Assembly (NCBI RefSeq): GCF_947487575.1
Contig: NZ_CANKXG010000007.1
Location: 1-64,000 of the forward strand
DNA: 64,000 nucleotides
Direction: 5' to 3'
From: an uncultured Algibacter sp.
Lineage (GTDB): Bacteria > Bacteroidota > Bacteroidia > Flavobacteriales > Flavobacteriaceae
Below the pieces are notes generated by a model. It was not told the DNA's origin. It made no database searches and saw nothing but the letters and a program-made list of their open reading frames with translations. The translations under genes were made by a program, and so were the position numbers. Below are positions 28,286-29,951 of this stretch, one piece after another; the stretch's first letter is position 1; each line of letters starts with the position of its first letter.

Positions 28286-28519
28286 TCATTCGATAAAAAC
28301 AAATATAGGTATTTCATTCATATTTCCATCATAATAATTGTTTTCAAGGAAAAACAGGGGTTTTTATAAATGAGATTATTGAAACTTTAATAAAGACATA
28401 TTAACAATATGAGTATTTCATAATTTAAAATTTTCAATTAGAAATTGAGCTTGTTATAGCGTGGGTTTTACAATCCTAAAATCGGTTAAAAAACATATTT
28501 GATTGAATATTTATTAACA
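28286..28519. other. Upstream part of the mraZ leader, no gene
   Basis: This is the left part of a 312-base gap between divergent genes. It is AT-rich, has no open frame of note and no strong hairpin. The right part of the gap holds the MraZ operator and a -7 box. The only other signal is a TATTTG near 28496 that does not match the promoter consensus well. Confidence 0.6.
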
Positions 28520-28550
28520 AAGTGGTATTTAGTGGTATAAAGTGGGATAA
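28520..28550 (+). promoter_or_regulatory. MraZ operator: three 10-bp direct repeats
   Basis: Three tandem repeats with exactly 10-bp period occur: AGTGGTATTT (28521-28530), AGTGGTATAA (28531-28540) and AGTGGGATAA (28541-28550), each preceded by A or T. MraZ proteins bind direct GTGGG- or AAAGTG-type repeats with one helical turn spacing in front of their own operon in other phyla. The array lies just upstream of the -7 box at 28558, so bound MraZ would cover the -33 region. Confidence 0.75.
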
Positions 28551-28557
28551 TTTTCAA

Positions 28558-28565
28558 TATATTTG
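28558..28565 (+). promoter_or_regulatory. -7 promoter element of the dcw cluster
   Basis: TATATTTG matches TAnnTTTG perfectly and lies 32 bases before the TTG start of mraZ. No TTG is found at the -33 distance because the MraZ repeats occupy that place. Confidence 0.5.
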
Positions 28566-28597: not shown

Positions 28598-29068
28598 TTG
28601 GATTTAATTACAGGGACATATGATTGTAAAGTTGATGCAAAGGGTAGGTTAATGATGCCTGCGGCTATAAAAAAGCAGCTTTCTGCGATTTTACAAGACG
28701 GATTTGTCTTGCGTCGTTCTGTTTTTCAAAAATGTTTGGAGCTTTATCCTATTGAAGAATGGCAGGTGTTAATGGGGAAGATGAACAAGTTAAATAAGTT
28801 TAAAAAGAAGAATAATGATTTTATAAGAAGGTTTACTGCAGGGGCAAAAATGGTTGATGTAGATGTGAGTGGTAGATTGTTGATTCCTAAAGATTTAACT
28901 GTTTTTGCGGAAATTTCGAAGAATATTGTTGTGGCTTCAGCAATTAATATTATTGAGATTTGGGATAAGGATTTATACGAACAGGTTATTAGTGACGCAA
29001 CGATTGATTTTGCTGAATTAGCTGAAGATGTAATGGGACAAGATGACAATGACAATGGAATATCATAA
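28598..29068 (+). CDS. mraZ: Transcriptional regulator MraZ
   Basis: MraZ represses its own division and cell-wall operon in enterobacteria. The 156-aa product contains two SpoVT/AbrB-like MraZ halves: TGTYDCKVDAKGRLMMPAAIKKQL (about 5-28) and KMVDVDVSGRLLIPKDLTVFAEI (about 85-107), each with the DxxGRxxxP core. The start is TTG at 28598; no suitable ATG precedes the first motif. The start of rsmH lies inside its 3' end. The 10-bp repeats upstream are the expected target. Confidence 0.95.
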   Translation: MDLITGTYDCKVDAKGRLMMPAAIKKQLSAILQDGFVLRRSVFQKCLELYPIEEWQVLMGKMNKLNKFKKKNNDFIRRFTAGAKMVDVDVSGRLLIPKDLTVFAEISKNIVVASAINIIEIWDKDLYEQVISDATIDFAELAEDVMGQDDNDNGIS

Positions 29069-29951
29069 TCCTGTACTTCTTAAAGAAACCGTTGATGGTT
29101 TAAAGATAGATCCAAACGGTGTTTATGTGGATGTTACTTTTGGCGGTGGCGGACATAGTAAAGAAATTTTAAAACGCCTTGGTAATAAGGGAAAACTTTT
29201 TGCTTTTGATCAAGATTTGGATGCTCTTAGAAATACAATTGATGATGATAGATTTACACTGATACATGAAAACTTCAGGTTTGTAAAGCGTTTTTTGAGA
29301 TTTCATGGTGTAAAGCAAGTTGATGGAGTTCTGGCTGATTTTGGTGTGTCTTCGCATCAATTTGATGTTGCTGAACGAGGATTTTCAACTCGTTTTGAAG
29401 CAGATTTGGATATGCGTATGAATCAAGAAAACGAGTTGTCAGCTTTTCATGTTGTTAATGAGTATGAGGAGGATAGATTAAAACAAGTGTTTTTGCAATA
29501 TGGTGAGTTGCGTGCCGCTCCAGCTATGGCAAGATTAATAGTTGAATACAGGGAAACGGAACCAATAATTACTAGCGAGCAGCTAAAAACGGTGTTGAGG
29601 AAATTTTTGCCTCCAAGACATGAAAATAAGGTGCTAGCTCAAATTTATCAAGCAATTAGGATTGAGGTTAATCAAGAAATCGAGGTTTTAAAGGAGTTTT
29701 TACTTCAAACTCCAGAAGTATTAAAGGTTGGTGGTCGATTAAGTTTTATTTCCTATCACTCTCTTGAGGACAGGTTGGTAAAGCGTTTTATTAGAAATGG
29801 CATGTTTGAAGGAGAGCCAGAGCGAGATATGTTTGGAAATTTTGAGGTGCCACTAAAAAAAGTAAACGGATTAATTGTGCCAACAGCAGAAGAAATAAAA
29901 ATAAATAATAGAGCAAGAAGTGCAAAACTTCGAATTGCGGAGAAATTATAA
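29043..29951 (+). CDS. rsmH: 16S rRNA m4C1402 methyltransferase RsmH
   Basis: RsmH (MraW) adds the N4-methyl group to C1402 of 16S rRNA using S-adenosylmethionine. The 302-aa product shows EYHNPVLLKETVDGL, the SAM motif YVDVTFGGGGHS, VDGVLADFGVSSHQFD, ERGFSTRFEADLDMRMN and SFISYHSLEDRLVKRFI. Three ATG codons (29043, 29049, 29055) can start it; the first has the best spacing from GGGACAAG. All overlap mraZ by 14-26 bases, so it is coupled to it. Confidence 0.96.
   Translation: MTMTMEYHNPVLLKETVDGLKIDPNGVYVDVTFGGGGHSKEILKRLGNKGKLFAFDQDLDALRNTIDDDRFTLIHENFRFVKRFLRFHGVKQVDGVLADFGVSSHQFDVAERGFSTRFEADLDMRMNQENELSAFHVVNEYEEDRLKQVFLQYGELRAAPAMARLIVEYRETEPIITSEQLKTVLRKFLPPRHENKVLAQIYQAIRIEVNQEIEVLKEFLLQTPEVLKVGGRLSFISYHSLEDRLVKRFIRNGMFEGEPERDMFGNFEVPLKKVNGLIVPTAEEIKINNRARSAKLRIAEKL

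Follow-up and report, generated by a model that had tools for sequence, protein, structure and literature searches.

We favor, by a modest lean, the reading that the dcw promoter in the window (the whole 64,000-nucleotide stretch of DNA analysed here) is a composite one, where MraZ auto-represses over the -33 zone and DnaA, bound alongside, tunes this repression. In the proposed mechanism, MraZ from the first dcw gene would bind three one-turn GTGG repeats (28521-28550) and, on this array, would cover the -33 zone upstream of the -7 box, shutting its own promoter. Directly upstream of the array, the 9-mer TTATTAACA would be a variant DnaA box accepted in this clade. DnaA would then sit at about -55, as reckoned from the -7 box, and adjoin the array, where it would touch or compete with MraZ and most likely relieve or tune repression. 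As to the sign of this effect, our guess leans to relief. The dcw transcription would then follow the replication initiator, either its amount or its state. The sequences, their conservation, and their geometry are observed; that MraZ and DnaA bind here, that MraZ represses, and in which sense DnaA acts are what we infer.

By itself, the GTGG array (the MraZ box) is of an ordinary and already-known kind; the composite of array and DnaA-like box is a candidate for a new variant. A broader proposal is that, in much of the class Bacteroidia, DnaA and MraZ share one composite dcw operator, with the DnaA of the large sub-clade to which this genome belongs accepting TTWTYAACA beside TTWTNCACA, together with a Thr/Ser to Ala change at position 435 (E. 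coli numbering) in its recognition helix. This proposal is tentative, and our doubt slightly outweighs our belief in it. Beyond a few model bacteria, little is known about how the expression of division genes is coupled to the start of replication, and to our knowledge, no input signal for MraZ has been established. In many Bacteroidia, a DnaA-like box lies 1 to 4 nt from the MraZ array, and this would be a concrete candidate for such an input. Furthermore, should the variant box prove genuine, a scan limited to TTATCCACA would overlook some of the DnaA sites of these genomes.

A predicted MraZ operator upstream of a -7 box

Three direct repeats, AGTGGTATTT (28521-28530), AGTGGTATAA (28531-28540), and AGTGGGATAA (28541-28550), lie head to tail on the forward strand and are the only exact AGTGGKATWW matches in the 64 kb, which confirms the exact 10-bp period claimed in a preliminary description of this DNA. 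A triple AGTGGDW at this period has a single match in the 3.5-Mb genome and none when reversed, and the loose pattern GTGG-N6-GTGG-N6-GTGG did not occur in any of 200 shuffles of the window. These results, together with the conservation of the array upstream of mraZ, exclude a chance origin.

Conservation was assessed in four sets of mraZ upstream regions selected without a DNA pattern: 28 relatives, 80 named loci (L062-L141; the best 80 of 572 confirmed, hence close relatives), 89 class-wide genomes, and 49 others from the phylum, which include four genomes of the class. The class-wide set covers 89 of the 107 class genomes with MraZ; four nearer genomes were left out, and 14 others are not in the set. 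Loci obtained by DNA pattern (L142-L171) were excluded from the array, box, and canonical-box counts. A three-copy array of period 10 with at least 11 of the 12 GTGG letters was found at 206 of the 246 loci, i.e., in 26/28 relatives, 80/80 named loci (best 80 of 572), 73/89 class genomes, and 27/49 others; all 12 letters were present in 21, 78, 51, and 13 of these, respectively. Shuffled upstream regions scored at least 11 letters in 0 to 0.13% of cases. GTGG-GTGG pairs were spaced at 10 in 385 cases and at 20 in 190, against 1 at 9 and 7 at 11. An array of the same shape, AGTGGGAAATTGTGGGGCAAAGTGGGAATA, stands upstream of mraZ in E. coli MG1655.

The operator assignment, made by sequence comparison, appears well supported. 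This part of the preliminary description stands on the conservation of the array (the repeats are kept, with at least 11 of 12 letters, in 26/28 relatives), on the E. coli array, and on the DxxxR motifs in both MraZ domains. Its remark that few Bacteroidota cases are known does not survive the above counts, which show the array to be widespread there, and it had overlooked the conserved DnaA-like box upstream. A wide MraZ regulon was considered separately and rejected: the loose triple GTGG occurs in 121/198 class genomes, and AT-rich arrays number about one per genome, as judged by eye among the matches listed.

The E. coli mraZ promoter resembles that of the window in having three GTGGG repeats with a 10-bp period upstream of mraZ. 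However, the E. coli array follows a TTGACA-like motif, whereas the window array precedes the -7 box in the -33 place, and, by reading, no TTWTYAACA lies alongside the former. The Mollicute MraZ site has been described as AAAGTG[T/G] direct repeats (Fisunov 2016, cited in PMC8475190). According to the excerpted text of PMC8475190, it shares with the window the direct repeats and an AAAGTGG-like core, and it occurs once in the M. genitalium genome; unlike the window, it belongs to another promoter type, and that excerpt mentions no adjacent DnaA box.

The -7 box of the window, TATATTTG (TAnnTTTG; 28558-28565, forward strand, by direct count), begins 16 nt after the start of the third GTGG. We take TAnnTTTG at -7 and TTG at -33 to be the Bacteroidota housekeeping promoter consensus. 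Direct reading found no TTG 17 to 23 nt upstream of this -7 box, and the second repeat covers the inferred place of a -33 TTG (approximately 28534-28538). The repeats are indeed situated as first described, upstream of a -7 box and in place of the -33 element. A -7 match is present in 107 of 109 related promoters (relatives, named loci [best 80 of 572], and the window). It is preceded by the start of the last GTGG at 16 nt in 88/107 and at 15 nt in 10/107, and a TTG lies 17 to 23 nt upstream in just 2/107. With a looser -7 pattern, the 89 class-wide genomes showed a spacing of 15 to 16 nt in 47 cases and 25 to 26 nt in 14, with no match in 19.

The position of the MraZ array relative to the promoter varies within the phylum, the array lying after a TTGACA-like motif, over the probable -7 box, or before the -7 box. 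The first arrangement was found elsewhere in the phylum (L037, L044, and L053) and the second in one family of the class (L039, L056, and L061). Since the array is retained while its place shifts, blocking would suit its mode of action; the near-constant distance to the -7 box in Bacteroidia leaves room for activation. Auto-repression via a blocked -33 region, as initially proposed, is plausible, because the array covers the place of the -33 TTG and repression by MraZ has been described for M. genitalium and, in a citation given there, for E. coli (PMC8475190, excerpted text).

A conserved DnaA-like box beside the array

Two nucleotides before the first GTGG of the window lies TTATTAACA (28511-28519, forward strand), a DnaA-like box of the form TTWTYAACA that is conserved in the class. 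This form directly precedes repeat 1 in 24/28 relatives, 77/80 named loci (best 80 of 572), 52/89 class genomes, and 0/49 others, compared with 45/9850 at random upstream positions. The distance to the first GTGG, measured for 146 boxes, was 2 nt in 101, 3 nt in 41, 1 nt in 3, and 4 nt in 1. These boxes read TTATTAACA (66), TTATCAACA (49), TTTTCAACA (30), and TTTTTAACA (1), the shared A at position 6 being set by the search pattern and therefore not evidence. The 9-mer is common: the own genome holds 340 TTATYAACA sites vs. 270 for the reversed control. The strict composite of box and two repeats was found in 43/295 class genomes, at one place each, and the reversed pattern gave one match in total.

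Upstream of rsmH in genomes without mraZ, neither the box nor a GTGG pair was found in 13/13 readable loci of 15, three of the 13 belonging to the class. The box is absent too from the class genomes that lost mraZ (G029, G030, and G218). The box therefore does not outlive MraZ. Three Bacteroidia genomes without mraZ (loci L231, L234, and L235) keep rsmH, with the GTGG pair and the DnaA-like box both missing upstream.

The element has the length of the canonical DnaA box TTWTNCACA and nearly the same letters, yet TTATTAACA does not match it, having A instead of C at position 6. A DnaA reading was at first set aside because of this letter and because of TTNTNCACA in dnaA promoters. It was taken up again on account of the canonical boxes in genomes lacking the element and of a box cluster in G086, a complete genome of the same family. 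A canonical 9-mer on either strand lies within 70 bp upstream in 22 of the 41 class genomes without a box at repeat 1, a group in which some have a degenerate first repeat or carry the box a slot higher up (e.g., L224, L256, L269, and L296, the last two having TTWTYAACA at the higher slot). In box-bearing loci, it lies within 70 bp in 3/153; controls gave 0/45 outside the class and 9/201 in the next 70 bp upstream. In five genomes (L226, L229, L255, L262, and L281), the canonical box takes the place and direction that TTWTYAACA has elsewhere.

The dnaA promoters of relatives carry TTNTNCACA in 22/29 and TTWTYAACA in one (L177). At these promoters, the clade's DnaA therefore seems to have kept the usual box. 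This lessens the case for DnaA at the mraZ element and makes a full change of specificity unlikely; acceptance of both boxes is the reading that we keep. The two box types exchange places in both promoters. The dnaA promoter of G333 has TTATTAACA at the position where G372 and G403 have TTATTCACA; in L177, TTATTAACA likewise occupies the canonical-box place of other relatives. Conversely, the mraZ promoter in the family of G333, G372, and G403 has TTTTCCACA at the place of TTWTYAACA elsewhere, and the dnaA loci of G109 and G032 show both box types mixed. We regard TTWTYAACA as probably a variant DnaA box that this clade accepts. At the dnaA loci (L172-L201), TTNTNCACA (e.g., TTGTTCACA) often abuts the TTTG of a -7-like box, as would be expected for dnaA autoregulation.

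The two commonest forms of the element have been named as putative or predicted DnaA boxes before. For M. hominis, M. mobile, and M. arthritidis, the identical 9-mer TTATTAACA was reported as such a putative box but, according to the excerpted text, upstream of dnaA and not of mraZ (PMC2751442), and TTATCAACA is given as a predicted DnaA box in Cyanothece in an excerpt of PMC4674748. Among the open-access matches listed, no paper connected a DnaA box to mraZ or dcw in Bacteroidota.

DnaA recognition helix and putative origins

Box type and DnaA recognition helix were compared in 109 genomes having both, with the box counted within 30 bp; loci whose first repeat is degenerate or whose box lies a slot higher up (e.g., L224, L256, L269, and L296) count here as box-bearing. 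The helix reads DHAT in 76/77 box-bearing genomes and DHST or DHTT in 18/19 genomes with a canonical box, G022 and G074 being the exceptions; genomes with neither box have A in 3/13. In G333, G372, and G403, the residue is S. The position corresponds to E. coli 435, which is among those proposed to alter box recognition (PMC5043019, excerpted text). On a tree built from MraZ plus the DnaA helix, from which that column had been masked, the residue and the box require two changes each, and there are two independent pairs. A sign test is uninformative with such numbers, so the match amounts to one coincident event and not to statistical proof.

Clustering at an origin, as known for DnaA boxes, is clear for TTWTYAACA at the putative origin of G086 and mixed at that of a second genome, G020. 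A coarse skew scan of G086 placed the minimum between ~2.3 and 2.8 Mb, and a fine scan of 22 stretches placed the cumulative minimum at 2.55 Mb. The densest cluster in ~430 kb comprises six TTWTYAACA motifs and no canonical box within 500 bp (2,546,899-2,547,393), with a Poisson estimate of ~2e-9 per 500-bp span. All six fall in the AT-rich spacer (L359:16735-17529) that separates two genes, which we read as rpiB and RNase R, where there is no GTGG array, and the skew turns positive at 2,548,001 (2-kb bins) with small dips later.

In G020, from another family, 20 stretches were sampled, one of them deliberately at rpiB, whose location was known. The top cluster (L498) has six TTWTYAACA and no canonical box within 600 bp (1,457,386-1,457,959), and the skew goes from -0.137 to +0.254 at 1,458,001. 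This case is weaker, since rpiB (1,457,804-1,458,235) contains three of the six motifs and the coarse weighted skew minimum falls at the 1.24-Mb sample. The 9-mer of the mraZ promoter is thus clustered at two putative origins, of which the second is less well placed than the first.

Clusters at rpiB are uneven in relatives, ranging from 0 to 6 motifs. In the matching region of eight own-genus genomes and two others of the family, TTATCCACA is present in 9/10 (G017 has TTATTCACA instead) and TATTAACA in 10/10; the own-genus regions hold 0 to 3 exact TTWTYAACA. The use of rpiB as an origin marker in canonical-box genomes was dropped, as it seems not to be one there: among the rpiB loci of 27 out of 30 genomes, those from canonical-box genomes have at most three box-like 9-mers in 700 bp. 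The comparison of origin box types in those genomes failed for this reason.

Alternative explanations

TTWTYAACA might belong to the MraZ operator as its outer edge and be recognized by the MraZ ring, without any involvement of DnaA; we consider this rather unlikely. Such an edge would agree with the element abutting the array in 153/197 relatives, named (best 80 of 572), and class loci, with the joint absence of both in the 13/13 readable mraZ-less loci (3 in the class), and with the additional GTGG that, 21 nt ahead of repeat 1, brackets the box in 23/80 named loci (best 80 of 572). However, the box-to-repeat spacing varies (1 nt 3, 2 nt 101, 3 nt 41, 4 nt 1; n = 146), and the same 9-mer clusters at the putative G086 origin, where no array exists. 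In other class genomes, moreover, the nearby canonical DnaA boxes may point either way and stand at other distances, and arrays in E. coli and other phylum loci do without TTWTYAACA. It is quite improbable that the reader of TTWTYAACA, at the origin and the mraZ promoter alike, is some origin-binding protein other than DnaA. The canonical TTATCCACA kept at the putative origin of the own genus and the TTNTNCACA kept in dnaA promoters (22/29) would fit such a protein; the exchange of TTATTAACA for TTATTCACA between the dnaA promoters of G333 and of G372 and G403, the like exchange in L177 relative to other relatives, the TTTTCCACA that replaces TTWTYAACA in the mraZ promoter of the family of G333, G372, and G403, and the DnaA helix residue that changes together with the box all argue against it.

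The role of MraZ itself could also be the opposite one. In a promoter without a -33 element, MraZ held at a fixed distance could recruit RNA polymerase, and the scarcity of a -33 TTG (2/107), the 15 or 16 nt between the last GTGG and the -7 box in 98/107 related promoters, and the array standing instead downstream of a TTGACA-like motif in E. coli and other phylum branches would be consistent with an activator. We find this unlikely, as repression is the role reported for MraZ in M. genitalium and, by a citation in that source, in E. coli (PMC8475190, excerpted text), and the array over the probable -7 box in one family of the class (L039, L056, and L061) suits blocking. Auto-repression by MraZ, tuned by DnaA, is the reading that we prefer to these three.

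The mraZ gene and variation of the array

The mraZ gene (28598-29068, forward strand) has a probable TTG start and encodes 156 aa with two MraZ domains (PF02381, E 1.2e-23), each with a DxxxR motif (D13-R17 and D89-R93); its sequence relatives in the PDB are 1n0e, 9qlr, 9qlg, and 9sx6. It is followed in the dcw cluster by rsmH (mraW; 29043-29951, forward strand), then by an FtsL-like gene and a transpeptidase gene. The weak TTG start codon may limit the amount of MraZ. A TTG start appears to stand at the same place in eight same-genus relatives (L009, L010, L013, L015, L017, L020, L021, and L022).

The copy number of the repeat differs among families, with at least four GTGG-type repeats at L144, L145, L249, and L252. 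Past the DnaA-like box, 21 nt ahead of repeat 1, one more GTGG is present in 23/80 named loci (best 80 of 572), 3/28 relatives, and 6/89 class genomes.
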